DNA of 20,579 bases, taken from a virus. The DNA lies in the IMG/VR virus record IMGVR_UViG_3300004693_000005, positions 1-20,579 of that record. One strand, written 5' to 3'. A model generated the notes under the pieces. It was not told the DNA's origin. It worked only from the letters and a program-made list of their open reading frames with translations, and did not search any database. Position 1 is the stretch's first letter; each line of letters begins with the position of its first letter. This document shows, piece after piece, positions 5,502 to 20,579 of the stretch. A program made the translations under genes and the position numbers.

Positions 5502-5513
5502 ACATGATATAAT
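5485..5513 (+). promoter_or_regulatory. Candidate promoter for the methyltransferase gene
   Basis: TTGACG at 5485-5490 and a perfect TATAAT at 5508-5513 with a 17-base spacer, overlapping the end of uvsX. The -10 box ends six bases before the ATG at 5520, which predicts a transcript starting at or beside the start codon (leaderless). This would let the methylase and its partner be expressed apart from uvsX. Confidence 0.5.
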
Positions 5514-5519
5514 TCAAAC

Positions 5520-6476: not shown

Positions 6477-7134
6477 AAATCGATATGAGTATGAAATATG
6501 TAGCGATAAAGTTTTTACAATTTTAAACTTTGCAAAGGAGTTTAGTTCTGATAATATTTCCAATCAAAAAACTCATAGAAGTGGATATAATAGAACTAAA
6601 ATAGATATAATTTTTAATACAATAATCGGGAAATCAGGAGAAGTTGCATTTTGTGAATATCTTATGGATTCTGGTAATAATGCAACAGTAGATTTTGAAT
6701 TACTTACAAAAAAAGAAAAAAGTTCTAATATAGAGATTTGGAAAAATATTGTGCCTGATATAAAGGTTGATGACATATCAGCATCTATTAAATCTACAAA
6801 ATCAAATGGAACTAGATATTTAATAAACAGTAATAGTGGATGGATTCAAAATTATGAACATTCCTCTGTTAACTATTTTGGGCTTGCAAGAGTGAATTTT
6901 CCTGATAATATAAAAAAAATAATACAAGATAATGAGTTAAAATCGCTTTATTCCTATTATTTAAAGAATAACATTAAAGTTTTGATTTCAGGATTAATAG
7001 ATAAGAAAACATTTTTTAGTAAAATAAAAAAATTATCAGATCAAGAAGTTAAGTTTTGTGGTAGAGAAGGAGATGATTCTAAGGTTATGTTTGATGATAT
7101 AAGAAATAATGAATGTAATCGGTTTAAATTGTGA
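6466..7134 (+). CDS. Candidate type II restriction endonuclease (PD-(D/E)XK-like), partner of the methyltransferase
   Basis: A 222-residue protein whose ATG lies inside the methyltransferase gene (11-base overlap), so the two are probably translationally coupled. I do not recognise it by overall sequence. A segment G-K-S-G-E59-V-A-F-C-E64-Y-L is followed by P97-D98-I-K-V-D-D-I-S-A-S107-I-K109-S, which fits a PD-(D/E)XK core with helix glutamate, catalytic Asp98 and Lys109. The usual acidic residue before the Lys is replaced by Ser107, as in some divergent nucleases. Gene coupling and this motif suggest the restriction half of a restriction-modification system. It could instead be a nickase or an unrelated accessory protein. 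It has no membrane segments or signal peptide. Confidence 0.6.
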   Translation: MNIKNRYEYEICSDKVFTILNFAKEFSSDNISNQKTHRSGYNRTKIDIIFNTIIGKSGEVAFCEYLMDSGNNATVDFELLTKKEKSSNIEIWKNIVPDIKVDDISASIKSTKSNGTRYLINSNSGWIQNYEHSSVNYFGLARVNFPDNIKKIIQDNELKSLYSYYLKNNIKVLISGLIDKKTFFSKIKKLSDQEVKFCGREGDDSKVMFDDIRNNECNRFKL

Positions 7135-7155
7135 TAAAATTAGAAAAGTAATATT

Positions 7156-8532
7156 GTGGATGAAAATAAAAAAATAAAAGTTGAAGAAAAAAAATTAGAT
7201 CTAGATTATTATGAAAATGTTATTCTTATAAATTCTTTGAATGATTCTGAATATTTAGCATCTATTATTGACCATAGTGATGTTGATTATTTTATAGATA
7301 GTAAAATTAAATTAATATTTAAAAAGATAGTAGAATTTTTTAATGATCGTGGTACATGTCCAAATATTACAGAAATTAAATCTAAATTAATTACTGATGA
7401 AGAAAAGGGAGCATTTAGAGATGTAATAACTAAGAATAGAAATTTATTAGAAGAAAAATTTAATAAAGAAGAATTATATTGTAATACTGAAAGATTCTTA
7501 AAGGAACGAGGACTTTATAAAACCGTTAATAAAGTTGCAGATGATTTCCAGCAAGGTAAGAGAGAAGTTGGAAATGTGTTAAAAGATTTTGAACGCATTT
7601 ATGCAATCTCGTTAACAGAAGATTTAGGGCATTGGTATTTTGAAGAAGTTGAATCCCATATTAAAGATCTTGTTGCTACTTATAATCCGATGCCTACTGG
7701 TTGGAAAAGTTTAGATGATAAAATAGAAGGAGGATTATTTCCTAAAACATTAACATGCTTTGTTGGTCAAGTTAATGTTGGTAAAAGTATTGTATTAGGA
7801 AATGTCTCAGTTAATATGACATTGAAGAATAAAAATGTCCTTCTTATATCTTGTGAAATGTCTGAATTCATGTATTCAAGACGTATAAGTTCTCAATTAT
7901 CACAAATTCCCCATAATGAACTTAGAACTTATGCTGATAAACTTCGAGAAGAAATTAATGGAATTGGAAGTGCATTAGATGGTAATAAATTAATTATTAA
8001 AGAGTATTCTCCAAAATCTGTTACTGTTAGACATATTGATGCGTATATAAGTAAATTACGACATAAAGGATTTAAACCTGATATTATTGTAATTGATTAC
8101 ATTAATTTAATTCAACCTGTTGGGAAAAATTTAAATACATATGCAGAAATTAAAGAGATTGCAGAAGATCTTAGAGCACTTGCATTTAAACATAACCTTC
8201 CTATTGTTACTGCAACTCAAATGGTTCGTAGTAGTCACAATAAAGAGAATCCTGGCATGGAAGGAATTGCTGAAAGTATAGCACTTGCAAATACCTGCGA
8301 TCTTATGTGTTCAATTTGGCAAACTCCAGAAGATAAATTGCTTAGTATTGTTAAAATGGGAATGATGAAAAATAGATTTGGAGTAAATTTTGGAGATTGG
8401 ATGTTTAAAGTAAATTATCCAACATTAACTATGAAAGAAACTAATAAAGATCTTTTTGCAGAAGATTTAAAAACAGAAACTATAGTGAAAAATATAGATA
8501 ACACATTAAGTAAGTTGGAGAATATAAAATAA
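7156..8532 (+). CDS. 41: Replicative DNA helicase, T4 gp41 (DnaB family)
   Basis: Hexameric 5'-3' helicase that unwinds DNA ahead of the polymerase. The N-terminal region (about 1-160) corresponds to the primase-interacting collar. The RecA-like motor begins at P-T-G-W-K-S-L-D (180-187), with Walker A G-Q-V-N-V-G-K-S at 204-211, C-E-M-S-E around E234, Walker B I-V-I-D314-Y-I-N-L-I, and motif H3 T-A-T-Q355-M-V-R. It is 458 residues long, against 475 in T4. The start is GTG at 7156: an in-frame stop lies at 7141-7143 and no in-frame ATG is near, so this is one of the few non-ATG starts here. No primase gene (gp61) is in the window. It is followed after one base by the DHH gene, so the two are surely co-transcribed. 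Confidence 0.94.
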   Translation: MDENKKIKVEEKKLDLDYYENVILINSLNDSEYLASIIDHSDVDYFIDSKIKLIFKKIVEFFNDRGTCPNITEIKSKLITDEEKGAFRDVITKNRNLLEEKFNKEELYCNTERFLKERGLYKTVNKVADDFQQGKREVGNVLKDFERIYAISLTEDLGHWYFEEVESHIKDLVATYNPMPTGWKSLDDKIEGGLFPKTLTCFVGQVNVGKSIVLGNVSVNMTLKNKNVLLISCEMSEFMYSRRISSQLSQIPHNELRTYADKLREEINGIGSALDGNKLIIKEYSPKSVTVRHIDAYISKLRHKGFKPDIIVIDYINLIQPVGKNLNTYAEIKEIAEDLRALAFKHNLPIVTATQMVRSSHNKENPGMEGIAESIALANTCDLMCSIWQTPEDKLLSIVKMGMMKNRFGVNFGDWMFKVNYPTLTMKETNKDLFAEDLKTETIVKNIDNTLSKLENIK

Positions 8533-8533
8533 T

Positions 8534-9418
8534 ATGGAAAAAATAGATTCAAATATAATAATTTTTACACATCGAGATTTAGATGGCGTTGCTTCATACC
8601 TAACCCTTAATTGGATTTTGGGGAAGAATACTAAAATCATTACTACCACTCCACATTCATTGTACGATAACATTAATATTTGGTTAAAGAATGATGCTTT
8701 TGAAAATTATAAAAAGATATTTTTTCTTGATCTTGATACTTCTATAGTTGGAGATATTATAGATCAAGAAAATGTTATTGTAATAGATCATCATACATCA
8801 CATTCATACATTTATAAAAATGCTAAAACGATTTTACAAGAATATTCATCATGTGCTAAATTATTAAAAGATACGTTAGGAAAATCTACAAATTTCAATG
8901 ATGATCAAAAATTGTTAATTGCACTAGCAGATGATCATGATGCACACACTAAAAAAAGTCCATTCTCTGATGATTTAAATATTGTATTTCATAACACTAA
9001 TAATAAAGTAGACTCATTTATTATGAATTTTAGATATGGGTTTAAACGGTTTGATAGAATGCAAAAAAATATTATAGCAGAATATAAGAAGAAACGTGAT
9101 GCATATTTACAACAAGATCGAACTATATATACAGGAAAATTAACAATAAAAACTATTAATTATAAAGTTGTATCAGTTATTGCATCTGAATATATTTCTG
9201 AAATTAGTGATCATATTCTTGAAAAATATGATGCGGATATTGTATTTATTGTTATGCTTAGTAGTCAAAAAGTTTGTATTCGTAAAAAAGAATCTGTTGA
9301 TGTAGACTTATCAAAACTTGCAGAAAAGATGTTGGAAGGTGGAGGTCATAAATGCGCAAGTGGAGGACATTTGACTGAAATATTCAAAAATTTTACAAAA
9401 ACCTTAAAACCATTATAA
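8534..9418 (+). CDS. DHH-family phosphoesterase (RecJ/NrnA-like)
   Basis: Metal-dependent phosphoesterase, either a single-strand exonuclease or an oligonucleotide/nanoRNA hydrolase. Motifs: H13-R-D15-L-D17 (motif I), L-D-L-D ending at D68 (motif II), the signature D85-H86-H87 (motif III), and an A-D-D-H-D stretch (motif IV) at about 132-136. The C-terminal DHHA1-type substrate-binding motif G-G-G-H is at 269-272. At 294 residues it is close to the short NrnA/Orn-like group rather than full RecJ (over 550). It sits one base after the helicase gene in the replication block, which suggests a role in trimming DNA or recycling oligonucleotides during replication. The ATG at 8534 lies in the usual A/T-rich context. 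Confidence 0.9.
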   Translation: MEKIDSNIIIFTHRDLDGVASYLTLNWILGKNTKIITTTPHSLYDNINIWLKNDAFENYKKIFFLDLDTSIVGDIIDQENVIVIDHHTSHSYIYKNAKTILQEYSSCAKLLKDTLGKSTNFNDDQKLLIALADDHDAHTKKSPFSDDLNIVFHNTNNKVDSFIMNFRYGFKRFDRMQKNIIAEYKKKRDAYLQQDRTIYTGKLTIKTINYKVVSVIASEYISEISDHILEKYDADIVFIVMLSSQKVCIRKKESVDVDLSKLAEKMLEGGGHKCASGGHLTEIFKNFTKTLKPL

Positions 9419-9453
9419 ATATTAGTTGAAATAATAAATTCAATATATAATTA
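9414..9453 (+). promoter_or_regulatory. Candidate promoter region upstream of the gene at 9460
   Basis: Two overlapping signals are present. TATAAATA at 9414-9421 is the exact T4 late promoter octamer and overlaps the stop codon of the DHH gene. TTGAAA at 9426-9431 with TAATTA at 9448-9453 (16-base spacer) fits the promoter pattern of this window. Octamers like TATAAATA arise by chance in such AT-rich DNA, so each is only suggestive. Confidence 0.35.
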
Positions 9454-9459
9454 GTATAT

Positions 9460-9780
9460 ATGTTGAATGATAAAATATTGGACAATTTTGTAAATTATAA
9501 CGATCCACTTGATAATATTTGCAATAAAGAATTTGTTATAAATGTGATGAAATTTGGTGCATACTTATCAATTATTAATAATAAACGTATAAATGCTTCA
9601 GTTTTATTCATATCAATACTTGAAAATTCTAAATTACGTGATATATTTATGGAAATCACTGGAGCAGAAAATGTCAGAGATTCATTACTTGGGATAATGG
9701 AAATTTATCCTGTTTTAGTAAAATCTAAAAATACTAAACGTATCTTTGATAAATCGAAAAATAAAAATGACAGAATTTGA
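9460..9780 (+). CDS. Small unknown protein upstream of the gp59-position gene
   Basis: A 106-residue protein, mostly helical in appearance, with an acidic N-terminal half and a very basic tail (K-S-K-N-T-K-R and K-S-K-N-K-N-D-R at the end). I do not recognise it. In T4 the order is 33-59-32, and gp33 has 112 residues, so position and size would allow a late-transcription co-activator. However, I see no gp33-like clamp-binding C-terminus, so this is only a positional thought. Its last 14 bases overlap the next gene, suggesting translational coupling. No SD sequence is present; the ATG follows a candidate promoter within seven bases. Confidence 0.6.
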   Translation: MLNDKILDNFVNYNDPLDNICNKEFVINVMKFGAYLSIINNKRINASVLFISILENSKLRDIFMEITGAENVRDSLLGIMEIYPVLVKSKNTKRIFDKSKNKNDRI

Positions 9781-10420
9781 AAAAAAAATATATAATAAAC
9801 ATCTAGCAGTTTCACGTTCAGCTAGAAATAAAGCATTTAAATTAAAAAAGGATTTTTCTAATTTTGAAGATGATGCTAAATATTTATATATTAAAAAAAT
9901 ATCTATATTCTTTTCTAAATATCCAGAAATTGATATGGATTTATATTTTAGTGCTCCATATAAGTTGTACCTTGATGTAGAATATTTTGATTTAAATTAT
10001 TTTGCATCTCCAAGAGCAATTAAATCTTATTCTATTTATAAACAGGAATTAGATAAATTAAGTCCTGATAAACAACTTGAGGACGTTAAGAACTCATTAA
10101 AATTTATTGCAAAATATTGTTTAGAAAATAACATAACTTTGGATAAATATATATGCCATAAAAAAATTGGCATACATCCTGAATGGATGTATCATATAAA
10201 ACTTAATAATATAAACCTGTACTCTTTAATGGAATTTCCAAATATACTTGATAGTATAAATGAACTCTCAGAAGAGGATCAGTATATGTTATTTGGTAAA
10301 ACACAAAAAGAACTTTTCAACTATAAAACTAACTATCTTCAATCAAATCTTAAAAAATATCTTAAAGTAGCGATAAGAAAAATAAACGGTTTTATTGAAA
10401 ATAATTTAAAAAATAATTGA
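9767..10420 (+). CDS. Unknown basic protein in the position of T4 gene 59 (candidate helicase loader)
   Basis: A 217-residue protein starting M-T-E-F-E-K-K. The frame also has a TTG at 9746, but the ATG at 9767 is the better start. It is rich in Lys, Tyr and Asn, with an N-terminal basic helix, aromatic clusters (Y-F-D-L-N-Y-F-A-S at about 70-78) and a lysine-rich C-terminus. It lies directly before gene 32, as T4 gene 59 (helicase loader, also 217 residues) does. A stretch around H-P-E-W-M-Y-H-I-K-L followed by a hydrophobic helix vaguely resembles a C-terminal part of gp59 as I remember it. Synteny, length and charge support a gp59-like loader that would place gp41 on gp32-coated forks; sequence alone does not prove it. 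Confidence 0.6.
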   Translation: MTEFEKKIYNKHLAVSRSARNKAFKLKKDFSNFEDDAKYLYIKKISIFFSKYPEIDMDLYFSAPYKLYLDVEYFDLNYFASPRAIKSYSIYKQELDKLSPDKQLEDVKNSLKFIAKYCLENNITLDKYICHKKIGIHPEWMYHIKLNNINLYSLMEFPNILDSINELSEEDQYMLFGKTQKELFNYKTNYLQSNLKKYLKVAIRKINGFIENNLKNN

Positions 10421-10444
10421 AATTTTAAAAAAACAACGTATAAT
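10417..10444 (+). promoter_or_regulatory. Strong promoter for gene 32
   Basis: TTGAAA at 10417-10422 and a perfect TATAAT at 10439-10444, separated by 16 bases, overlapping the end of the previous gene. It is one of the two best sigma70-type matches in the window and fits the high expression needed for a single-strand binding protein. Confidence 0.7.
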
Positions 10445-10481
10445 ACACACAACACAAAAACATAAAACAAAATAAAATAAT
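10445..10481 (+). promoter_or_regulatory. G-free, A/C-rich leader of gene 32, possible autoregulatory site
   Basis: From the -10 box to the start codon there is not a single G and very few T; the leader is runs of A broken by C. Such RNA cannot fold stably. T4 gp32 is known to repress its own translation by cooperative binding to an unstructured leader, so this leader could serve the same purpose. No SD sequence is present. I did not find the upstream pseudoknot known from T4. Confidence 0.4.
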
Positions 10482-11348
10482 ATGAAATACAACGCATCAA
10501 TGTTCGATGAGATCAAAGACTCATACAATGTAAAAGCCGAATCATCTTTTAAAGATATAATGAAATTTGAAATTGGTAATACATATTTAGTTCGTCTAGT
10601 TCCAAATTTAGAGGAACCTAAAAAAAGCATATATCATTACTTCCATCACAGTTGGACAAGTGTATCTACTGGAAAATTTATTTCAGTTCTATGCCCTACC
10701 ACATATAAAGAATCCTGTCCTATTGATGATTATGTGATGAAAATCTATCGTAATGGAACTAAGGAAGAAAAGGAAGTTAATAAAGCAATCTCCCGTAAAG
10801 ATAACTGGATGGTTGGAGTATATGTTATTAATGATCCTGTAAATCCAGATAATAACGGAAAACATAAGGCAGTTCGTTATGGACATGAATTGAATAAAAT
10901 CATTGAAAGTGCAATAAGTGGTGATGATAAGGATGAATTCGGTGGTAGGATTTTTGATCTTGTTGATGGTTGCACACTACGAATTAAGTGTGAAGCCAAA
11001 AGTGATAAAGTAAGTGCTGGTAAGAAACCTATGGCTACTTATGCATCATCTAAGTTTCTAGCACCTTCTAAACTTGAAGAAATGACTGATGAAAAGGTAG
11101 ATGCTATTAATGCTAATTTAATCGATCTAACACAATTTATGAAGCCAAAGAAAGCATCTGAATTGCAAAGGATCTTGGATGAACATTTCTTTGGTATTAA
11201 AGATACAGTTTCAAAAGAAGAATATCCAGAAAGCAATGATGAAGATGATTCACGATCTTCTACAAGTTCTCCAGTAAATGAAGATTCAGGTGAAACTGAT
11301 TCTGATACTGATGCTAAATTGAAAGCATTGCTAGACGATTTGGTTTAA
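10482..11348 (+). CDS. 32: Single-stranded DNA-binding protein, T4 gp32 type
   Basis: Coats single-stranded DNA at forks and recombination intermediates and recruits gp59, gp43 and UvsX partners. The 288-residue protein has the gp32 layout: a basic N-terminal segment for cooperativity, a central OB-fold core with the H-H-S-W-T-S (55-60) and F-I-S-V-L-C-P-T-T-Y (67-75) signatures, and a long acidic Ser/Asp/Glu-rich tail ending A-L-L-D-D-L-V, like the acidic tail of T4 gp32 (301 residues) that binds partner proteins. In T4 a zinc is held by one His and three Cys. Here H55/H56, C71 and C79 are present, but the position of the last Cys (C-P-V-C in T4) reads C79-P-I-D82, so the site looks incomplete or altered. 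It has its own promoter and terminator, a monocistronic unit. Confidence 0.93.
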   Translation: MKYNASMFDEIKDSYNVKAESSFKDIMKFEIGNTYLVRLVPNLEEPKKSIYHYFHHSWTSVSTGKFISVLCPTTYKESCPIDDYVMKIYRNGTKEEKEVNKAISRKDNWMVGVYVINDPVNPDNNGKHKAVRYGHELNKIIESAISGDDKDEFGGRIFDLVDGCTLRIKCEAKSDKVSAGKKPMATYASSKFLAPSKLEEMTDEKVDAINANLIDLTQFMKPKKASELQRILDEHFFGIKDTVSKEEYPESNDEDDSRSSTSSPVNEDSGETDSDTDAKLKALLDDLV

Positions 11349-11371
11349 TATAATTAATATCATATGATAAT

Positions 11372-11413
11372 AAAATTCGTTCTATTAATTTAAAACTAAT
11401 AGAACGAATTTTT
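11372..11413 (+). terminator. Intrinsic terminator of gene 32
   Basis: A perfect 16-bp stem (11372-11387 with 11397-11412), a 9-base loop and a T run at 11409-11413. Near the gene 32 stop codon there is also a 12-bp palindrome, TATCATATGATA at 11358-11369, of unknown role. Confidence 0.9.
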
Positions 11414-11424
11414 CACATAATTTT

Positions 11425-11658
11425 ATGAATATTTATAGCGATATTGTAACAAAGGAAATAGAAAATATAATTAATTCTTTTATTTTTGATCCTCACAATA
11501 ATATCACTATCTATAAATTAAATATGAAATTATGTGATGTAATTAAGAAATATGGAATATATAATACCTTTCCATATTGCAGAATTTGTGATAGTAATAA
11601 TGTATCAATATTATTCAAAAATAGTAATGGTGATTGTAAATTAAAATTTCAGATATAA
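11425..11658 (+). CDS. Small unknown protein with a C-x-x-C motif
   Basis: A 77-residue protein starting M-N-I-Y-S-D-I-V-T, with a first half of amphipathic helix and a centre reading Y-C-R-I-C-D, which could be half of a zinc or redox site; no second Cys pair is present, though single Cys residues occur at C37 and near the end. I do not recognise the family. It begins 11 bases after the gene 32 terminator and no convincing promoter lies between, so it may depend on read-through or on a weak start. The following gene begins nine bases after its stop. Confidence 0.55.
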   Translation: MNIYSDIVTKEIENIINSFIFDPHNNITIYKLNMKLCDVIKKYGIYNTFPYCRICDSNNVSILFKNSNGDCKLKFQI

Positions 11659-11661
11659 ATA
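11634..11661 (+). promoter_or_regulatory. Weak candidate promoter before the gene at 11668
   Basis: TTGTAA at 11634-11639 and TAAATA at 11656-11661 with the recurring 16-base spacer. The -10 region is also part of TATAAATA (11654-11661), the T4 late promoter octamer. It lies six bases before the ATG at 11668. Base composition makes chance likely enough that I give low confidence. Confidence 0.3.
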
Positions 11662-11667
11662 TAAAAT

Positions 11668-12165
11668 ATGCAAAACGACGAAATAGCGGCAGCAATGATG
11701 GCAGGATTAGTAGGACAAGAACTCAGAACAGTAGATGAATTAACTGATAAAGTTGGTTCATCAGGGCAAGCAAAAAAGATTGATCCAAGATCCTTTTTAA
11801 CTAGTTTGGTTAAAAAGGAACAAAATAATAGACAAAGTGTTATGGATCAAATAAACCAAGAAGCAATAGAACGTTATCCTATGCCCTCTAATGCCACTCC
11901 ACAAGCACTACAATCCTCTCCACAAGTTTCTGATGTAAATATTAGGCAACGAATGACACCACAAGCAACTATAAGTAATATCGATCCAAAAACATTAATT
12001 AAATTTGCTGATGCTAGTTTAATTTTTGCAAAAGCATTTGATAGAATTAGTGTTTGTATTGAAAAATATGTGAAATATACTACAAATGATTCAAAACCTA
12101 ATATCGTTTCTAATGATTCAAGTGATTCTATTCCAACTCGTAAAATTGGAAAGAATGTTAAGTAA
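11668..12165 (+). CDS. Unknown protein upstream of the sliding clamp gene
   Basis: A 165-residue protein. The first 25 residues form an acidic Ala/Met-rich helix (E-I-A-A-A-M-M-A-G-L-V-G), a Gln/Ser/Pro-rich middle (about 75-105) looks disordered, a predicted helix follows (about 110-138, A-S-L-I-F-A-K-A-F-D-R-I), and the C-terminus is a Ser/Asp/Lys tail. This layout of short helices joined by flexible linkers suggests a protein that bridges partners rather than an enzyme, but I cannot name it. I considered a small terminase subunit and reject it for lack of evidence. Its stop codon overlaps the start codon of the clamp gene by one base (TAATG), so the two are translationally coupled, which ties its function loosely to the clamp. 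Confidence 0.6.
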   Translation: MQNDEIAAAMMAGLVGQELRTVDELTDKVGSSGQAKKIDPRSFLTSLVKKEQNNRQSVMDQINQEAIERYPMPSNATPQALQSSPQVSDVNIRQRMTPQATISNIDPKTLIKFADASLIFAKAFDRISVCIEKYVKYTTNDSKPNIVSNDSSDSIPTRKIGKNVK

Positions 12166-12905
12166 TGGAAACCCTATTAACTCTTAATAAGGAATTATTT
12201 ATAAATAAATTCTTATCACCTATTAGTAAATTAACAGAAAATGTTATTTTAAATGTAGAATCTGATAATATAAATACAGTATGTAATTCACCTGATGCTG
12301 GAGTAATTTTATATGCAAAATTAACTATTCCTGTTGATATACAAACTCCATTAAAACTAAATCTTCTAGATATTGGTAGATTAGTTAGATTAGTTGGTTG
12401 TATTGAAACATCAGGAGATATTACGTTATTAATTAAAGATAATAATATATCTTATAAGGATAAAAGTTTTAATTTTGTATATCATTTATCTGATAATGGA
12501 TATATACCAAAATGTTCATTAGATGCTAAAAAAATAAATAATCTCGTATTTGATACTGAATTTGAACTTCCTATTAGTAAGTTTAATGAAATAATGAAAG
12601 GTGCTTCTATTGTAAGTGATTCTAATAAATTATATCTATATACAACTGATAACGGAATTTATGCGGAATTAAATGATAAAGAAACCCCAAATTCTAATAA
12701 TATTACATATCTAATTTCTGATACTTTCTCTGGTGCAAATATTACAAGACCCTTCCCTTTAAATCTAGAACATATTAGATTAATTAGTGGATTAAAGACT
12801 GATAAACTAAAAGTTCGTTATAATAATAAGTTTGATATAACAGTATTTGAAATATTAGAAGATAATATTTTAGTTAAATTTGTAATATCCGCTCTTGTAA
12901 AGTAG
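12165..12905 (+). CDS. 45: Sliding clamp, T4 gp45 type
   Basis: Trimeric ring that holds the polymerase on DNA and, in T4, also activates late transcription. It has no catalytic motif; the call rests on the fold pattern and context. The 246 residues (T4: 228) alternate beta strands in two similar halves, with the clamp-like stretch L-L-D-I-G-R-L-V-R-L-V (about 67-77), then E-L-P-I-S-K-F-N-E-I-M-K-G-A (about 138-151) opening the second half and continuing into Y-L-Y-T-T-D-N-G-I-Y-A. The C-terminus ends in strand residues V-K-F-V-I-S-A-L-V-K. The ATG overlaps the previous stop as TAATG. No clamp-loader gene (44/62) is in this window. Confidence 0.85.
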   Translation: METLLTLNKELFINKFLSPISKLTENVILNVESDNINTVCNSPDAGVILYAKLTIPVDIQTPLKLNLLDIGRLVRLVGCIETSGDITLLIKDNNISYKDKSFNFVYHLSDNGYIPKCSLDAKKINNLVFDTEFELPISKFNEIMKGASIVSDSNKLYLYTTDNGIYAELNDKETPNSNNITYLISDTFSGANITRPFPLNLEHIRLISGLKTDKLKVRYNNKFDITVFEILEDNILVKFVISALVK

Positions 12906-12929
12906 GTATATTATATTAAATTAATATAA
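12895..12929 (+). promoter_or_regulatory. Candidate promoter overlapped by a palindrome
   Basis: TTGTAA at 12895-12900 and TAAATT at 12917-12922 with a 16-base spacer. A perfect 9-bp inverted repeat with a one-base centre (TTATATTAA at 12911-12919, TTAATATAA at 12921-12929) covers the -10 box. It could be an operator, or simply a chance palindrome in AT-rich DNA. Confidence 0.35.
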
Positions 12930-12933
12930 CAAC

Positions 12934-13275
12934 ATGGCAAATAAATTAACTACATTAGGATATTTCTTAAAAAGACTTAGAGACAGTGGATATTATGCTT
13001 ATAAGTTATATGATGATTATAGTAATAGTGATAGTAGATTATGGACTATTGTTATCGATCCTAAAGTAAGTTCAATTTTTTGTACGTGTTTCTCCTGCGA
13101 TGCAAATTTTGGCGATGATGAACCATATTTAGAACTTTCAGACGGTGGACAGTATTTACCCACACGACTTAAAATTAAAACCATGTCATTCGAAATACTA
13201 ATAGAAAATTTAGTAAAATATGGCATCAATAATAAGACCCCTGAATATAATAAAAGGGGCATAACGAATAAATAA
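12934..13275 (+). CDS. Small phage protein, function unknown
   Basis: A 113-residue protein starting M-A-N-K-L-T-T-L-G-Y-F-L-K-R-L-R-D-S-G-Y. Other visible stretches are R-L-W-T-I-V-I-D-P, a Cys-rich F-C-T-C-F-S-C at about 49-55, and L-S-D-G-G-Q-Y-L-P. The three clustered Cys could bind metal, but the pattern (C-x-C-x-x-C) is not diagnostic. From memory, T4-like phages of marine bacteria carry a similar protein with the L-G-Y-F-L-K-R-L-R-D-S-G start; that would make it a conserved phage gene of unknown role. It starts 28 bases after the clamp gene and ends four bases before the next gene. Confidence 0.75.
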   Translation: MANKLTTLGYFLKRLRDSGYYAYKLYDDYSNSDSRLWTIVIDPKVSSIFCTCFSCDANFGDDEPYLELSDGGQYLPTRLKIKTMSFEILIENLVKYGINNKTPEYNKRGITNK

Positions 13276-13279
13276 TATT

Positions 13280-13666
13280 ATGGCATCCGATAATCCTGAA
13301 AAAAAAGTTAGAAAACCAAAAGTAAAGAAAAAGGAAACTTTAAAATCTTTACCAGCAATACCAGAAACCGTCGATCCTGAAATTCAAGCACTAATAAAAG
13401 ATGCATTTATACAATTTTATGATACAGTATCTATAGAAAATTCTAAAAATAGAAGTATTGATCAATTAAATAATATTACTACGGAATTTTTAAAAGCATT
13501 CATTACAATTGGATATGATTTGAATGGGGATAAAGTTTTCATAATGCATGCTAGTAACGCAAAAGATAGAGATGCATTATTAGAAAATTTAAGATTCACA
13601 ATGTTTAATATCTTTAATCAGTTAAATGGTAATGAGTCTGATGAAGATATGGATCAAATGGAATAA
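13280..13666 (+). CDS. Unknown protein upstream of the terminase, with basic N-terminus
   Basis: A 128-residue protein. The N-terminus is very basic (K-K-V-R-K-P-K-V-K-K-K), as in DNA- or RNA-binding tails, the middle is a helical domain (about 30-115), and the end is strongly acidic (N-E-S-D-E-D-M-D-Q-M-E). I do not recognise it. It lies where T4 has gene 16, the small terminase subunit (164 residues), next to gene 17, but I see no sequence signature of gp16 and a terminator separates it from the large subunit. A small terminase, a transcription accessory protein or an unrelated conserved gene are all open. Confidence 0.65.
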   Translation: MASDNPEKKVRKPKVKKKETLKSLPAIPETVDPEIQALIKDAFIQFYDTVSIENSKNRSIDQLNNITTEFLKAFITIGYDLNGDKVFIMHASNAKDRDALLENLRFTMFNIFNQLNGNESDEDMDQME

Positions 13667-13689
13667 TTCAAAATATTGTAAACTTATTA

Positions 13690-13732
13690 AATTACGATTA
13701 TGTTTAAATAATAGCATAATCGGAATTTTTTT
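13690..13732 (+). terminator. Intrinsic terminator before the terminase gene
   Basis: A 13-bp stem with one mismatch (13690-13702 with 13715-13727), a 12-base loop and seven T at 13726-13732. It ends the clamp-region transcript 34 bases before the terminase start. Confidence 0.8.
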
Positions 13733-13766
13733 GCTTTTAATGTAGTGGTAGATTAAGTAATAAACT

Positions 13767-14492
13767 ATGAGCGATGTTAATGATGTTTGCCCTGAAGATA
13801 AATTTTTAGATGAATTAGAAGATGATATTATAAATGAAAATCCTATAAATGATAAACAATTTTATAGAGGCGATAAAAAACTTCCAAGGGAAAATGCAAA
13901 GTTTAATTTTACTCCTGCAATGGTTAAAGAACTTGCAAAATGTAAAGATAATATAGTTCACTTTGCAGAAAATCATTTTACTATAGTAAATGTAGATAGA
14001 GGTAAAGAAAAAATTGAACTTTATCCAGCACAAAAAAGAGTTCTTAAAAGTCTTGCTAAACAGAGATGGATTTCATTAACCGCATCTCGCCAGTGTGGAA
14101 AAACTACAATCACAACAGTTTACGCATTATGGAATACTTGTTTTTTTGATGATCAACGTGTGCTTATAGTAGCAAATAAGGAAAATACTGCTATTACTAT
14201 TTTTAAGAAAGTTAGATTGGCATATGAATTATTGCCTAATTATTTAAAACCAGGTGTTAAAGAATGGGGAAAAACCGGAGCAGTATTTGCAAATGGTAGT
14301 AGTATAGGCATATCTACAACAACATCAACAGCAGCAAGAGGAGATAGTGCTAATTGTATAGATGGAAGTTCAATAGTTACTCTACGTGATAAAACTACAA
14401 AAGAAATTAAAGATATAAAAATGTCAGATTTAGCAAATATTTTTGAATCTAATGATAATATTTTAAATATAGATATAATAAATGATGAATAA
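13767..14492 (+). CDS. 17: Large terminase, N-terminal fragment (gp17-N) fused to the N-half of a split intein
   Basis: The first part of the packaging ATPase. Residues 1-196 are terminase: a leading acidic region, the adenine-binding-like L-Y-P-A-Q (86-90) and Walker A S-R-Q-C-G-K-T-T (107-114), ending A-A-R-G-D-S-A-N. From Cys197 to the stop at 241 the sequence changes to an intein N-half (C-I-D-G-S-S-I-V-T-L). The protein stops before Walker B, so alone it cannot hydrolyse ATP. The missing remainder is at 15414-16988. Joining exteins 1-196 and the 410 C-terminal residues gives 606 residues, against 610 for T4 gp17. The upstream signal (TTGCTT 13731-13736, 16 bases, TTAAGT) is too weak to call a promoter. 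This is not a pseudogene: both halves keep intein splice signals and conserved motifs. Confidence 0.93.
   Translation: MSDVNDVCPEDKFLDELEDDIINENPINDKQFYRGDKKLPRENAKFNFTPAMVKELAKCKDNIVHFAENHFTIVNVDRGKEKIELYPAQKRVLKSLAKQRWISLTASRQCGKTTITTVYALWNTCFFDDQRVLIVANKENTAITIFKKVRLAYELLPNYLKPGVKEWGKTGAVFANGSSIGISTTTSTAARGDSANCIDGSSIVTLRDKTTKEIKDIKMSDLANIFESNDNILNIDIINDE
14355..14489 (+). mobile_element. N-half of split terminase intein (45 residues)
   Basis: It begins with the catalytic Cys197, followed by D-G and a short block A strand (S-I-V-T-L), a turn of charged residues, then I-K-M-S-D-L-A-N-I-F and a tail ending I-I-N-D-E. Block B with its T-x-x-H motif is absent here and found in the C-half, so the intein is split between blocks A and B, much earlier than in common split inteins, whose N-half is about 100 residues. 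Atypically split terminase inteins with a very short N-half are known from metagenomic phages (AceL-TerL type). Confidence 0.88.
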
Positions 14493-14536
14493 ATGCTGGA
14501 TTTTCTAATATTAGGCGTTAAATACTGTTATAATAT

Positions 14537-15430
14537 ATGAAAAATAGTAGAAATAATCCAGATATAAATAGAAAATATAATTATTTATATAAATTAACTA
14601 ATAAAATAAACAGTAAAATTTATATAGGGGTTCATCGCACTGATAAATTAGATGATGGATATATGGGATCAGGAATGATGTTAAAACGTGCAAAAAATAA
14701 ATATGGAATAGATAATTTTGAAAAAAATATTATTAAATTTTTTAATACATATAAGGAAGCGTTAGATGCTGAGAGAATAATCGTAAACATGGAATTTATA
14801 TCGGATTCTAATAATTATAATGTAAGAGAAGGGGGATTTGGTAATTGTAAATGGTCGCCTGAAATGATTATTATTATGTCGAATACTGCTAAAGAATTAT
14901 GGAATAATAACGAACATAGATTAAAAATGGAAAAAATTACATCTGATCCCGAAAGAAATATTAAAATCGGAAAAAAAGTATCTGAATGGATTAAAACACA
15001 TCCTGATGAACATAAAATTCGTATGGATAAAATAAATAAAAATCCTGATAAAATTAAAAAAACCGCTGATAAACATAGAGGAATGAAACGAACTGAAACT
15101 ACTAAAAAAAATGTTTCAAACGCTTTAAAAGAATTATATATAGAAAATCCAGAATTGGGAATTACTATAAGTGGAAAGGGGTCAAAATATATTTATAATC
15201 CACTAACACAAGAAATTAAAAGAATTTCTAAAGATGAATATATAATAGAAGGTTGGATATATGGAAGTGGACCAAAAAATAAAGAATCTTATAAAGATTT
15301 AAATTCTGGTAGTTTTTTTGGATATGATCCTAATACGTTAACGGTTAAAAGATTTAAAAAAGATATGATATTACCAGAAGGATGGGTTAAAGGACGACCT
15401 AAAGGAGTTACAAATGGCAGATCTAAATAA
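14537..15430 (+). CDS. GIY-YIG homing endonuclease lying between the two terminase halves
   Basis: A free-standing DNA endonuclease that cuts intein- or gene-free alleles and so spreads its locus by repair. The GIY-YIG domain is clear: N-Y-L-Y-K-L-T-N (15-22), K-I-Y-I-G-V-H (27-33) with the Y-I-G at 29-31, R34, G-S-G at 44-46 and a Glu in E-A-L-D-A-E79-R that fits the metal-binding residue. The middle is Lys-rich and helical, with a NUMOD3-like segment (about 155-200, M-K-R-T-E-T-T-K-K). The C-terminus has two copies of a repeat, Y-N/D-P-x-T with E-G-W (220-247 and 263-289), probably DNA-binding modules. It starts 44 bases after the N-half stop, and its last 17 bases overlap the C-half start. 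No clear promoter precedes it; a TATAAT at 14529-14534 is too close to the start codon to judge. Confidence 0.92.
   Translation: MKNSRNNPDINRKYNYLYKLTNKINSKIYIGVHRTDKLDDGYMGSGMMLKRAKNKYGIDNFEKNIIKFFNTYKEALDAERIIVNMEFISDSNNYNVREGGFGNCKWSPEMIIIMSNTAKELWNNNEHRLKMEKITSDPERNIKIGKKVSEWIKTHPDEHKIRMDKINKNPDKIKKTADKHRGMKRTETTKKNVSNALKELYIENPELGITISGKGSKYIYNPLTQEIKRISKDEYIIEGWIYGSGPKNKESYKDLNSGSFFGYDPNTLTVKRFKKDMILPEGWVKGRPKGVTNGRSK
15402..15407 (+). promoter_or_regulatory. Shine-Dalgarno site for the terminase C-terminal fragment
   Basis: AAGGAG lies six bases before the ATG at 15414, inside the end of the endonuclease gene. It is the only strong SD sequence I found at a start codon in this window and supports 15414 as the true start. 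It also links translation of the terminase C-half to the endonuclease gene. Confidence 0.6.
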
Positions 15431-15755
15431 ATATAAAGTTTTTAAAAATGAAAATTTTGAAGTTTTAACTGATAGTGGATTTCAAGATTTTAAAGGCATT
15501 ATTATCGGAGAAAATCCTAATAAAATTAGATTGGATTTTTCTGATAAAACTCATCTAATTTGTACTCCAAAACATAAATTAATTATAGAAGATGGAACAT
15601 GGATATATGCTAAAGATGTAAAAATTGGATTTGTATTATTTGGAGTAATAGAAGTTATACATATTAATATATTTGAAAATGATGATAAAGTATATGAATT
15701 TCTTCATGTGGATAATGGACATAAATATTTTGCAAATGGAAAATTAAATAAACAA
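15414..15755 (+). mobile_element. C-half of split terminase intein (114 residues), ending Lys-Gln
   Basis: It contains block B (L-I-C-T51-P-K-H54-K-L-I with the T-x-x-H pair), a Hint-type A-K-D-V-K-I-G segment (66-72), block F (K-V-Y-E-F-L-H-V-D ... H-K-Y-F-A-N-G) and the end L-N-K-Q114 before the +1 Cys115. Together with the 45-residue N-half this is a 159-residue mini-intein with no internal endonuclease. The canonical penultimate His is Lys here and the terminal Asn is Gln. Inteins ending in Gln are known and can splice, but this pair of changes is unusual and may slow or alter C-terminal cleavage. Confidence 0.88.
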
Positions 15756-16988
15756 TGCCTAATAATTGATGAATGCGCTTTTATTGAAAAGTCATATATG
15801 GATGAGTTCTGGAAGTCTGTTATACCAGTTATTTCATCAGGTAAAAGTACTAAAATTTTTATGGTATCTACACCTAATGGAGTTTTAAATAAATTTTATG
15901 AAATTTATAGTGAAGCTGAGAAAGGAAAAAATAACTGGAAAGCGGAAAGAATAGATTGGTGGGAAGTTCCTGGTCGTAATGAAAAATGGAAAGCAGATAT
16001 GATTTCGACATTAGGTTCTGAAGAATCATTTAATCAAGAATTTGGAAATCAGTTCTTAGATTCTACTAATGGTGCGGTGGGTATAGAAGTGCTAGAAAAG
16101 TTTAAAAACAACATTAAAGACCCATTATGGAAGAGTAAAGACAATACCTATAGAGTATATGAAATGCCTGATAAAGAAAAAATATATGTTATTGGGGTTG
16201 ATGTTGGGGAAGGTATTGGTAGAGCATCATCAACTGCACAAATATTAGATATTACTGATTTAACTAATATAAAACAGGTTGCGGTATATGGATCAAATAT
16301 AATAGAACCTTTTCATTTTGGTAATATTTTATTTAATATATGTTCATCTTGGGGTAATCCTCCGTTATTAATTGAGCGAAATAATTGCGGAGCACAAGTA
16401 ATCGACGCATTAGCACATACATTATTTTACGAAAAGATTGTAAGTTATAGTAAATTAACGAATACTGGTGGAGGAAAAACTACAAGACATTTGGGAGTGT
16501 TCAGTCATAATAATTTAAGATTTAATGCTGTAACTAATTTACGATATTGGATAAATTTCTTACAAGTAGTTTCAGTTAATGATGCGGATACTATAACAGA
16601 ATTTGAAACTTTTGTAAGATATCCGAATGGTACTTATCGTAAGAGTGGTGATACGAATAGAGATGATTATGTTATGGGATTAGTTTGGGCATTATTTATG
16701 TTAGAAACTGATTTATGCCAGCAATATTTTACTATAGATGAGCATGATGATCAAAATAAACCATTAAAATTATCAAGAAATGATGCTGAATATTCGTATG
16801 ATGAGTTATATATACTAAAAGATCTTATTACAGGAGAAGTTATTAATACATGTTCTAAAGTTGATAAAAGACCTCCTATTCAATCTAAGTATATTCCTAT
16901 ATATGGTGATATGGATTCTATATTAGATGGGAGAGAAATAGATATAGATGATTTAAGTAGCATGGGTTATACTATATACATTCCATAA
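15414..16988 (+). CDS. 17: Large terminase, C-terminal fragment (gp17-C) preceded by the C-half of a split intein
   Basis: Residues 1-114 are the intein C-half; terminase resumes at Cys115 with Walker B C-L-I-I-D119-E120-C-A-F-I, then the coupling motif V-S-T-P-N-G (151-156) and the RNase H-like packaging nuclease: D263 in G-V-D-V-G-E-G, E321 in L-L-I-E-R-N-N-C-G and D417/D418 in R-D-D-Y-V-M-G-L (T4 gp17 has D401, E458, D542). Ligated to the N-fragment it gives a full packaging motor that translocates DNA into the prohead and cuts concatemers. The ATG at 15414 has an SD site and overlaps the endonuclease gene by 17 bases. The tube gene starts 19 bases after its stop. Confidence 0.93.
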   Translation: MADLNKYKVFKNENFEVLTDSGFQDFKGIIIGENPNKIRLDFSDKTHLICTPKHKLIIEDGTWIYAKDVKIGFVLFGVIEVIHINIFENDDKVYEFLHVDNGHKYFANGKLNKQCLIIDECAFIEKSYMDEFWKSVIPVISSGKSTKIFMVSTPNGVLNKFYEIYSEAEKGKNNWKAERIDWWEVPGRNEKWKADMISTLGSEESFNQEFGNQFLDSTNGAVGIEVLEKFKNNIKDPLWKSKDNTYRVYEMPDKEKIYVIGVDVGEGIGRASSTAQILDITDLTNIKQVAVYGSNIIEPFHFGNILFNICSSWGNPPLLIERNNCGAQVIDALAHTLFYEKIVSYSKLTNTGGGKTTRHLGVFSHNNLRFNAVTNLRYWINFLQVVSVNDADTITEFETFVRYPNGTYRKSGDTNRDDYVMGLVWALFMLETDLCQQYFTIDEHDDQNKPLKLSRNDAEYSYDELYILKDLITGEVINTCSKVDKRPPIQSKYIPIYGDMDSILDGREIDIDDLSSMGYTIYIP

Positions 16989-17007
16989 TTTCTGTTAAAT
17001 AATATAA

Positions 17008-17583
17008 ATGAATCCGTCGCAACAATCGATTTTAAATAGAGTAAGTAAAGATAAATTCTTATTGGTATTAGATTTACCTATAGTTATGCGTAATAGCACA
17101 CAATTAAATATTGGTGATAATTTAGATGCATTAACTTTTAGTGTTTTTGGTAGTTTAGTTCCTGACATTACAGTTCCACAAATAGGAGTAGAATTTTCAG
17201 GACAAGTTTATAATGTATCTAGTTATACTCGACCTAATCACACGCCTTTAGTTGTAAATTTTGTTATTGATAATGCATTTAAGAATTATTATATATTATG
17301 GCAATGGTTAAATCTTTTAAATACTACTAATGGAAGTATTTATGGTAGTAATGCAGCAACAGTAAAAACTAGCACGTTGCCTGAATATCAAACTACTTTT
17401 ACAATATTTGCATTGGATGAATATAATCAAAAGATTGCACAATGGACATATCACAACGCATTTATTATAGGATTAGGGGGGATTAATTACAATGATAGGG
17501 ATTCAACATGGATAGAATCGACTACAACAATGCAATATAGTAAGATAGATTTTGAATTATTACCTACCTCAACCATAACATAA
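17008..17583 (+). CDS. 19: Tail tube protein (gp19-like)
   Basis: Forms the inner tube through which DNA leaves the virion. The 191 residues show the tube-protein pattern: an N-terminal helix-strand segment K-D-K-F-L-L-V-L-D-L-P, strands around P-D-I-T-V-P-Q-I-G-V and S-Y-T-R-P-N, the helix with aromatic W residues in L-W-Q-W-L-N-L-L-N (about 97-105), then F-T-I-F-A-L-D-E-Y-N-Q and W-T-Y-H-N-A-F-I-I-G-L-G. It is longer than T4 gp19 (163). It sits between the terminase and the sheath, so tube precedes sheath, the reverse of T4's 18-19. Low sequence identity to T4 gp19 means the call rests on pattern and neighbourhood. No SD sequence is present. Confidence 0.75.
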   Translation: MNPSQQSILNRVSKDKFLLVLDLPIVMRNSTQLNIGDNLDALTFSVFGSLVPDITVPQIGVEFSGQVYNVSSYTRPNHTPLVVNFVIDNAFKNYYILWQWLNLLNTTNGSIYGSNAATVKTSTLPEYQTTFTIFALDEYNQKIAQWTYHNAFIIGLGGINYNDRDSTWIESTTTMQYSKIDFELLPTSTIT

Positions 17584-17625
17584 AGAATTATTATATCAGG
17601 TTTTGATAAATAATAATATAATAAT

Positions 17626-19977
17626 ATGTTAACAATTTCTTCACCAGGTGTACAAATTAACGAAATAGATCTTTCAAATACTACTGCTACTACTAAAGGG
17701 ACTAATATCTTTCTTGCTGGTTATGCTCATCAAGGACCAACTGATGAAGTAATATATCCTACTACAATGACTGAATTCGAACAGATTTTCGGATTGCCTA
17801 CAACTCCATCTGAACGTTATTTCTATCATTCTGCACAACAAATCATTCAATCAAACGGAACTTTATTAACAACACGCCTTCCATATGGTTCAGGAAGTGG
17901 ATTTGGATTTACGGATAGTTATAGTGCATTAGTATATCCTTTAGTATCTGCTATAGGATCAGGCGGGTATCAAATTGGAATGCCTTCTCAATATGAATTA
18001 AATTCTAATGAATACGCAAATTTAACACAGAACAATTTTGCATGGGGTAATATAACTACATCTACAAGTTTAATAAATCTTACAAGTACATCAACTGGAT
18101 TTTCTGTAACGTCAGGTAGTTCATCTATTACTGTTCCTTATAATACATTTGATATTTCTGGAAATATTACTACTACTACTACCGCTACTACAACTGCGAT
18201 TGGTGGTTTTAATACTACGATTACTTCTATATCTGCATTAACTGCAACTAGTCATATTACTAATGCAAAATGGAATGGTTCTATTTTAGATGGTGCTATT
18301 GTTATTATCAATAAATCACAAACTACTATTAATGGAAATTCTGAAGGGTATTATGTATCGCTTGCTGATAATAGTAATTTTGGCCCAACTTCTGTATTCA
18401 ATGATGTTAATTATGTTTATAGTTTAACAGGATCAGGAGATTCAAATAATTGGTACACATTACCTAAATCTAGACAATCATTTAGCCTATCTGGATCTAA
18501 TCTTGTAAGTAATGGTGGTAGCGTTTCTGAAACTATTGAATCTACTCCATTATTTAACTTTGGAGATTCTTACTTCGATGATAGTTTAATTCTAAATGTA
18601 TTTAAAATAAAAACTTCAATTTATGAAGCACCATTATTGTCAATATCATTAGCAGAAACTTATATTGGTTCATTAGATTCCACAAAGAAAACTTCTACAT
18701 CACAAGGTGGAGTATTACGTTCATTCTATTTGGCAGATTCTGTTAATAATGGATCTTCTAATATTGAACTTTTAGTAAATCCTGCTATATCAAAACAAAC
18801 TGCATGGACTAATTTAACTTCAGTTAATCCAATTGTAAATGTTACTATAGGTTCAGCAGCTAAAGCATTATTTGCAGATGGTGTATATGCTATAGTAAAT
18901 ACCTTGATAGATAATACTGATGTTGGACATATTCCTGACAAAATTACTCGCGCTCTTACATTAATTGAAAATCCTGAAATTTATCCAGTAGACATTATTA
19001 TCGATGGTGGATTAACTACAATTGCATCAAATCTTACAGCATTAGTATCACATTCTCTGACAAGTAATGTTTATGATGATTCGCAATATATAAATATTAA
19101 TACACTTTCATCATATGCTACTGATGTTGCAAATAATGGGTTTTATGATAAATGGACTACTATATATAATATTTTTGATGGATTTGTATCTCAAACTAGA
19201 AAAGATTGTATGTTTATAGTTGATCCGCTTCGTCAAATTTTTATCAATGGTAAAGATTCAAAGGTAATTGCTGATCCTAAAAATACATTCTCTCAAAATA
19301 TTTACACTCCTTTACAAATATTATACGGTAGTTCTGATGATAATTATTCAGCAACATATGGTAATTGGGTTAAGATGTATGATTCTAATATAGATGCTCA
19401 ATTCTGGTGTCCTGCTTCTGGATTCGTAGGAGCAATTTATGCAAATAATGATTATGCTACATATCCTTGGTTTGCTCCTGCTGGTTTAACAAGAGGTATT
19501 ATTAAAGGTATTACTGATATTGCATTTAATCCGAATCAAAAACAAAGGGATTTCTTATATACAATATCTATAAATCCTATCGTATATTTCCCTGCGGATG
19601 GATATGTTGTATATGGACAAAAAACATTACAGAAAAAACCATCAGCATTTGATCGCGTTAATGTTCGTAGATTGTTCTTATCATTAGAAAAATCTACTCA
19701 AGCAGTAATGAAGTATTTTGTCTTTGAACCAAATACAGACTTTACAAGAACACGAGTTGTAAATATCTTAACTCCAATTTTTGATAAAGCAAAAGCAACA
19801 CAAGGAGTTTATGACTATAAAATAGTTTGCGATTCCAGAAATAATACAAATTTTACTATAGATGAAAATGAGTTAATAGTTGACATATATTTAAAACCTG
19901 TAAGATCTGCTGAATTTATTCTTGTATCATTCTACGCCACAAGAACGAGTCAAAATTTTAACGAACTTATTGCTTAA
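17626..19977 (+). CDS. 18: Tail sheath protein (gp18)
   Basis: Contractile sheath subunit. The N-terminus S-S-P-G-V-Q-I-N-E-I-D matches the S-P-G-I-E-L-K-E start of T4 gp18, which links neighbouring subunits. The C-terminal third is clearly conserved: P-A-G-L-T-R-G-I-I-K-G, N-P-I-V-Y-F-P-A-D-G-Y-V-V-Y-G-Q-K-T, F-D-R-V-N-V-R-R-L-F (675-684), and V-C-D-S-R-N-N-T with the final P-V-R-S-A-E-F-I. At 783 residues it is about 120 longer than T4 gp18 (659); the extra length lies in the Ser/Thr/Gly-rich middle, the likely surface domains, including a near-pure Thr run at 182-191 coded by repeated ACT codons. It ends 15 bases before a terminator. Confidence 0.95.
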   Translation: MLTISSPGVQINEIDLSNTTATTKGTNIFLAGYAHQGPTDEVIYPTTMTEFEQIFGLPTTPSERYFYHSAQQIIQSNGTLLTTRLPYGSGSGFGFTDSYSALVYPLVSAIGSGGYQIGMPSQYELNSNEYANLTQNNFAWGNITTSTSLINLTSTSTGFSVTSGSSSITVPYNTFDISGNITTTTTATTTAIGGFNTTITSISALTATSHITNAKWNGSILDGAIVIINKSQTTINGNSEGYYVSLADNSNFGPTSVFNDVNYVYSLTGSGDSNNWYTLPKSRQSFSLSGSNLVSNGGSVSETIESTPLFNFGDSYFDDSLILNVFKIKTSIYEAPLLSISLAETYIGSLDSTKKTSTSQGGVLRSFYLADSVNNGSSNIELLVNPAISKQTAWTNLTSVNPIVNVTIGSAAKALFADGVYAIVNTLIDNTDVGHIPDKITRALTLIENPEIYPVDIIIDGGLTTIASNLTALVSHSLTSNVYDDSQYININTLSSYATDVANNGFYDKWTTIYNIFDGFVSQTRKDCMFIVDPLRQIFINGKDSKVIADPKNTFSQNIYTPLQILYGSSDDNYSATYGNWVKMYDSNIDAQFWCPASGFVGAIYANNDYATYPWFAPAGLTRGIIKGITDIAFNPNQKQRDFLYTISINPIVYFPADGYVVYGQKTLQKKPSAFDRVNVRRLFLSLEKSTQAVMKYFVFEPNTDFTRTRVVNILTPIFDKAKATQGVYDYKIVCDSRNNTNFTIDENELIVDIYLKPVRSAEFILVSFYATRTSQNFNELIA

Positions 19978-19991
19978 TAGATAGTTATGAT

Positions 19992-20025
19992 AAAACCGCC
20001 ATATTAAAATAATATGGCGGTTTTT
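19992..20025 (+). terminator. Intrinsic terminator after the sheath gene
   Basis: A perfect 15-bp stem (19992-20006 with 20010-20024), a three-base loop AAA, a GC-rich CCGCC/GGCGG base and five T at 20021-20025. It is the strongest hairpin in the window and closes the terminase-tail transcript. Confidence 0.93.
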
Positions 20026-20033
20026 ATTGTACA

Positions 20034-20061
20034 TTGACATTTATATATATACTGTTATTAT
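20034..20061 (+). promoter_or_regulatory. Promoter for the gene at the right edge
   Basis: A perfect TTGACA at 20034-20039 and TATTAT at 20056-20061, again with 16 bases between. It follows a terminator, as expected for a new unit. The -10 box ends five bases before the ATG at 20067, predicting a leaderless transcript. Confidence 0.6.
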
Positions 20062-20066
20062 AAAGT

Positions 20067-20579
20067 ATGGAATTAATTAAATTAACAGAATCTCAAATAT
20101 TAGAATATAGAAAATTATATAAACAAAAATTTTTAAATATCCTTTTTAAAGAATATCCAAACTTAGAACATGATATAATAGACTTTAATAATTTATATCG
20201 ACTAGAACTTACTAATAAATCTCAAATGTTATATCATTATGTTTGTGATTTAAAAATTAAAGCAAAATGTGAAAGTTGCGATAATCAAATTACTATGTTT
20301 GGTGCTAATCGTAATTGGTCATATAATAAATATTGTAGTAAATTATGCACATGTAAAGATTCTGAATTATTAAAAAGACGAGGAAATTCTAGAAAATTAT
20401 TATGCATCGATTCTAGTGGAATTCAGCGTGGATTGATCGATTCTGCATTATTGACAGATATTTCAAATATTAATAAGAATGATATTTTAGAGTATATACA
20501 GGGAAGATCTATAAATGATTTAAAAGTTCATTTTATATATAAACATCCAGATTGGTATAATTTTATTATTACTAAATAT
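20067..20579 (+). CDS. Zinc-finger protein, probable homing endonuclease (cut by window edge)
   Basis: The first 171 residues of a protein that runs off the window. A zinc-finger pattern C68-x2-C71-x18-C90-x3-C94, with Y-C-S before the second pair (N-K-Y-C-S-K-L-C), is typical of the N-terminal module of phage-encoded free-standing endonucleases, including the Vsr-like (EDxHD) group found near split inteins. The catalytic domain would lie beyond the edge, so the class is not proved. The rest is Lys/Leu/Asn-rich with a helix-rich segment after 120. It has its own promoter behind the sheath terminator, as mobile endonuclease genes often do. A different DNA-binding protein is possible. Confidence 0.65.
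   Translation, partial: MELIKLTESQILEYRKLYKQKFLNILFKEYPNLEHDIIDFNNLYRLELTNKSQMLYHYVCDLKIKAKCESCDNQITMFGANRNWSYNKYCSKLCTCKDSELLKRRGNSRKLLCIDSSGIQRGLIDSALLTDISNINKNDILEYIQGRSINDLKVHFIYKHPDWYNFIITKY

Follow-up and report, generated by a model that had tools for sequence, protein, structure and literature searches.

A GIY-YIG endonuclease gene between split-intein halves in the fractured large terminase gene of a T4-like phage

Anatomy of the fractured terminase locus

The window analysed here is the whole 20.6 kb stretch (20,579 nucleotides) of IMG/VR record IMGVR_UViG_3300004693_000005, which derives from a T4-like phage, a bacterial virus, and carries a split gene for the large terminase (TerL, T4 gp17-like). 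The N-terminal open reading frame (ORF) occupies positions 13767-14492 and the C-terminal ORF positions 15414-16988, with a GIY-YIG endonuclease ORF between them (Table 1). A first-pass annotation, made from the sequence of the window, had proposed a terminase in two pieces, with an intein N-half (IntN) ending the first, a C-half (IntC) opening the second and a GIY-YIG endonuclease gene separating them. Each of these points held. The two pieces match phrog_5989, phrog_2 and the T4 gp17 structure, the intein halves show HINT-family homology in sequence and predicted fold, and the middle ORF matches PF01541 and the phage homing endonucleases of phrog_314. Recounting the joined exteins (196+410) also reproduced the 606 residues given for the ligated product, RGDSAN + CLIIDECAFI. 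The ligated protein contains Walker A, Walker B and the nuclease domain, as in a T4-type large terminase, and the break falls between the two Walker motifs.

The 45 residues of IntN are CIDGSSIVTLRDKTTKEIKDIKMSDLANIFESNDNILNIDIINDE, beginning with CIDGSSIVTLRD. IntC runs from MADLNKYKV to HKYFANGKLNKQ and is followed by CLIIDECAFI of the C-extein. Three features were absent from the first-pass annotation: an intein end of Lys-Gln and not His-Asn, an AceL-type split point, and an overlap of 17 bases between the 3' end of the GIY-YIG ORF and the start of the C-terminal ORF, associated with an AAAGGAG motif that most relatives lack. The residues of the GIY-YIG catalytic set are conserved in the family (Y29, I30 and G31 of the YIG motif, Glu79 and Asn95).

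Table 1 Features of the split TerL locus in the window
Feature	Position	Strand	Basis
TerL N-extein, 196 aa, Walker A SRQCGKTT, end ...ARGDSAN	13767-14354	+	phrog_5989 E 2e-49; Terminase_6N 1.9e-6
Intein N-half (IntN), 45 aa, Cys1; stop codon 14490-14492	14355-14489	+	leave-one-out profile 61 bits; best shuffle 8.9
Free-standing GIY-YIG homing-type endonuclease ORF, 297 aa	14537-15430	+	PF01541 2.3e-5, above cut-off; phrog_314 4.6e-35
AAAGGAG, Shine-Dalgarno-like, within the end of the GIY-YIG ORF, 5' of the C-piece ATG	15401-15407	+	sequence
Intein C-half (IntC), 114 aa, start MADL, block B TPKH, terminal Gln	15414-15755	+	CatC sequence and fold match
TerL C-extein, 410 aa, +1 Cys, Walker B CLIIDE, nuclease domain, stop included	15756-16988	+	T4 gp17 3ezk 5.1e-21; phrog_2 1.4e-22

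Profiles built with the window left out score its IntN, IntC and GIY-YIG parts at 61, 160 and 411 bits, whilst 1000 shuffled controls per part reached maxima of 9, 13 and 7, respectively. IntC matches CatC, a consensus atypical split intein (6dsl_B), in sequence (3.6e-6), and its match to VidaL is weak. An AlphaFold model of IntC, calculated with 33 relatives, has a predicted local distance difference test score (pLDDT) of 86.5. The top PDB match of this model in Foldseek was again 6dsl_B (template modelling (TM) scores 0.83/0.80, root-mean-square deviation 1.4), followed by many other inteins. The intein identity of the two halves is thus borne out by the profiles and by the sequence and fold of IntC.

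The residues expected to carry out splicing are retained. Cys1 is present in 32/32 distinct relatives and Cys+1 in 30/30, and the block B TxxH motif (TPKH in the window; T51, H54) and the block F histidine (His103, also present in the window) each occur in 29 of 30 distinct proteins. The window therefore has the class 1 features of a Cys nucleophile at position 1, Cys at +1, TxxH and the block F His. Since Lys-Gln replaces the penultimate His and terminal Asn that are usual, if not universal, in class 1, we refer to the intein as class-1-like. Its last residue is Gln in 27 of the 30 distinct proteins and Asn in the other 3. Gln is thus the rule in this clade, which rules out decay as its explanation. 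End variants of the Lys-Gln type are tolerated in inteins, and three Gln-ending inteins are known to splice, those of Pab and Mma Pol II and of the CIV RNR (PMC4031507).

A second intein lies elsewhere in the window. The DNA polymerase ORF (596-3799) contains a contiguous, cysteine-less mini-intein of 161 aa (2477-2959) at the PolB site YGDTD/S, where the slash marks the junction, ending in VHN/S. It matches the cysteine-less split intein of Aes123 PolB1 (9hth, 3.4e-13). With the TerL intein, the phage therefore has two intein-bearing essential genes.

Recurrence and allelic states at the Walker B site

We took a census by searching IMG/VR with the GIY-YIG, IntC and TerL parts. The evidence throughout is sequence data, most IMG/VR records are fragments, and sampling was shaped by the search patterns; the locus counts are not frequencies. 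TerL is split at the RGDSAN/CLIIDE site in 42 distinct loci. In 36 loci an IntC of the window clade occupies this Walker B site, and in 31 of these a GIY-YIG gene lies between the halves. The first-pass annotation had regarded GIY-YIG as a less usual partner. This view did not stand: with 31/36 core loci and a published precedent in AceL NrdHF (PMC7891396), the enzyme is neither unprecedented nor unusual here.

Two IMG/VR contigs are identical to the window, L002 over 9414-20579, which covers the whole locus, and L001 over 14575-20579. These records, together with the same arrangement in many diverged phages, rule out an assembly artefact.

Five core loci have no GIY-YIG gene (L112, L116, L120, L124, L125). 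The pieces of L116 and of L120/L124 are only 26-54 nt apart, leaving no room for a gene. A 160-aa ORF without a Pfam match (983-1465) takes the usual place of the GIY-YIG gene in L112, and in L125 it is replaced by an ORF of 554 aa whose matches are Vsr-like and Mom-like. The GIY-YIG frame is broken in L035. Many relatives carry an empty allele, including L007 (ARGLSIN-CLFIDEASHI), L008 and L012/L013. Contiguous inteins occupy the same site in L129 (a mini-intein of 154 aa ending in THN/C) and L003 (RGQSIN/C...VHN/CLFIDE). An AlphaFold model of the L129 intein was poor (pLDDT 61) and was not used. Finally, the nuclease is fused to IntN in one ORF in the distant relatives L041/L042 and L130. 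At this one TerL site, alleles that are empty, contiguous or fused thus occur together with split ones that have or lack the nuclease gene.

The GIY-YIG genes at split TerL form one clade (95/98). In L029 (2-2586), L182 (2003-4383) and L206 (1883-4482), a GIY-YIG gene from the same wider family stands immediately 5' to a TerL that lacks an intein. The L029 contig starts inside its GIY-YIG gene, which is nested in the split-TerL clade. We found no IntC relatives in cellular genomes of 84,980 species. An IntC-only search of named phage records gave a best identity of 39%, to split TerL genes at a neighbouring site. No second TerL was found in records of 18-204 kb, which are possibly incomplete, and the 193-kb and 204-kb relatives have one TerL only.

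Several related TerL genes are broken more than once. The L165 gene (375-6246) is in four pieces, with three split-intein breaks that each contain a different ORF: a GIY-YIG gene, a PD-(D/E)XK-like ORF resembling phiR1-RT g167, and a third ORF. Its second piece holds only ~11 extein residues, CLVIDEMAFIE (Walker B), and three trans-splicings would be needed. TerL of L038 (1908-6565) is also in four pieces, and those of L026 (1199-4871) and L180 (4390-7651) are in three, their extra breaks having no nuclease gene between the halves. In L003 a single TerL ORF (4561-7233) contains three inteins: one is the C half of a split Walker A intein, and the other two are contiguous mini-inteins separated by just 11 residues in the Walker B region. 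An extra partial TerL-like ORF of 232 aa, which covers the ATPase region including Walker A, lies directly upstream of the intein-riddled TerL in L003 (2098-2796) and L005 (3508-4206).

Cassette transfer and competing explanations

Comparison of pairs of loci revealed IntN-GIY-IntC cassettes that are far more alike than the genes around them. The L110 and L111 cassettes share 99.8% DNA identity (3 mismatches in 1268), whilst the outer N-extein is 83.9% identical and the C-extein beyond 240 nt is 79.6% identical. Synonymous divergence (dS) in this pair is 1.03/1.56 for TerL and 0-0.007 for the cassette. The corresponding values are 0.47/0.60 and 0.01-0.04 for L030 and L037, and 0.47/0.22 and 0-0.013 for L100 and L103. 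Near-identical cassettes in TerL genes diverged to 80-84% indicate that the cassette moves as a unit. Identity drops off tens of bases to ~120 bases from the intein junctions, as is expected of homing with short co-conversion.

The trees are in keeping with this pattern. In the TerL tree the window stands beside the empty L007-L009 (99) within a mostly empty clade, and the starred branches force at least six changes between occupied and empty states. The GIY-YIG tree places the window with L026, then with L095/L097, unlike its TerL grouping; L026 TerL was too broken and was left off the TerL tree. These comparisons indicate that the cassette has moved horizontally, with edges at or near the intein junctions. 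The ratio of nonsynonymous to synonymous divergence (dN/dS) is ~0.07-0.3 for IntN, GIY-YIG and IntC in most pairs with usable dS, indicating purifying selection. For the window and L026 the ratio was at or close to saturation, and we placed no weight on it.

We conclude that the window very probably encodes a fractured TerL with a mobile cassette, consisting of an atypically split class-1-like intein and a GIY-YIG gene, in which the protein would be restored by trans-splicing and the cassette spread by the nuclease. This reading rests on the HINT homology, the catalytic residues conserved in 30 distinct relatives, the contiguous and empty alleles at the same site, the purifying selection, and the lack of a second TerL in the 193- and 204-kb relatives. 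The TerL pieces would be produced separately, and the short IntN would dock into the nearly complete IntC. The intein would then excise itself through a Cys1 thioester, transfer to Cys+1 and cyclisation of the terminal Gln, ligating the exteins at ...RGDSAN-CLIIDECAFIEK (RGDSAN to CLIIDECAFI) to give the 606-residue TerL. The GIY-YIG enzyme would cut intein-less TerL alleles, presumably at or near the junction, and repair would copy the whole cassette into the cut allele; the transfer of cassettes between alleles lends this cleavage indirect support. We strongly infer that trans-splicing is needed for phage viability.

Several observations weigh against this reading. Splicing and cleavage are predictions from sequence. 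The terminal Gln and penultimate Lys are non-canonical, and certain Gln-ending inteins splice slowly (PMC4031507). The window, L001 and L002 are close copies that may come from related samples. Since both copies are identical to the window, they give no dN/dS for its own cassette. The near-identity of L156 and L177 reaches into the C-extein too, so ordinary recombination also acts at TerL.

Alternatively, the GIY-YIG gene may be a passenger beside a fixed split intein, neither targeting the site nor moving the cassette. Split inteins do persist without the gene (L116, L120, L124), a Vsr-like ORF stands in its place in L125, and its frame is broken in L035. However, we consider this unlikely, as the GIY-YIG genes at split TerL form a single clade and, like both intein halves, are near-identical across diverged TerL alleles, and relatives of the gene also occur directly 5' of intein-less TerL. 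It is very unlikely that the two TerL pieces act unspliced as a two-chain enzyme, with intein halves that are non-splicing remnants or dimerisation parts. The departure of Lys-Gln from the canonical His-Asn would fit such remnants, but Gln-ending inteins do splice (PMC4031507), diverged relatives retain C1, TxxH, the block F His, a terminal residue with a side-chain amide and Cys+1, and dN/dS is well below 1. The break also separates Walker A from Walker B, and the Walker B piece of L165, with its ~11 extein residues, has intein halves on both sides. Removal of the interruption as RNA (a group I or II intron) or its bypass during translation is scarcely credible: phage homing endonuclease genes often sit in introns and TerL introns exist, as in ICP1 terL (PMC10448857), but Rfam gave no intron match in 13500-17300 (the best was a chance snoRNA, E 0.81), matching intein halves are encoded on both sides of the break, and the contiguous alleles of L129 and L003 read as intact protein inteins.

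A broader extension of the fractured-TerL reading is tentative, and we rate it at somewhat below an even chance. In this scenario the split intein and the free-standing GIY-YIG enzyme would home together into TerL, as an intein counterpart of collaborative intron homing, having been built stepwise from a nuclease beside an intein-less TerL and a contiguous mini-intein at the same site. These split inteins would normally cyclise Gln, and successive invasions could divide TerL among four polypeptides, to be joined by three trans-splicing events. The side-by-side alleles and the near-identical cassettes in diverged genes bear on the origin of split inteins and on their spread where the nuclease lies outside both halves, and they allow direct tests of the succession of events and of split-intein homing. 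Gln-ending split inteins with a short IntN are also possible new tools for protein ligation.

Comparison with known systems

Fractured genes, in which a split intein interrupts a conserved phage enzyme gene and a free-standing endonuclease gene separates the intein halves, were reportedly described by Dassa et al. in 2009, the best known nuclease being Vsr-like. The window has the same layout, but with a GIY-YIG nuclease, a TerL site and an atypical split point. AceL NrdHF is a phage-like fractured gene with an intervening putative GIY-YIG homing endonuclease; it differs in host gene (nrdHF) and in its class 3 intein (Ala1), canonical split of 98+48 aa and terminal Asn (PMC7891396), compared with TerL, Cys1, 45+114 aa and terminal Gln in the window.

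Closer in architecture are the split TerL inteins AceL-TerL and GOS-TerL, with an IntN of 25 and 37 aa and an IntC of ~104 aa (PMC11766414). Together with Cat, these share with the window the TerL host, the short IntN and long IntC, and the fold (TM 0.83), whereas the window has a terminal Gln, a conserved MAD start and the site RGDSAN/CLIIDE. We take the AceL insertion site to be downstream, at QEF/CEFL. Databases also contain atypically split TerL genes from isolated T4-like phages, namely Yersinia phiR1-RT (g166/g167/g168), Escherichia TB34 and Shewanella Thanatos-2. Their site, IDE/CAFI, lies a few residues downstream of that in the window, and their inteins end in HN and not Gln. The nuclease of phiR1-RT and TB34, placed between the halves or fused, is of the PD-(D/E)XK type (TnsA/Endo I-like), in contrast to GIY-YIG in the window. 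To our knowledge, the Gln-ending Pol II and CIV RNR inteins are contiguous, whilst the window clade is naturally split and ends, as a rule, in Gln.

A Campylobacter phage TerL with an intein and a homing endonuclease gene has been published (PMC3322345). In Campylobacter phage CP81 (NC_042112), we observed TerL N and C matches near 102014 and 125194, ~23 kb apart on opposite strands; the halves may be unlinked, and the C part still has an intein-like flank. As far as the literature searched shows (most subscription papers lay outside it), this TerL site, the Gln-ending split clade, the evidence for cassette transfer and the three- and four-piece TerL genes are new relative to these systems.

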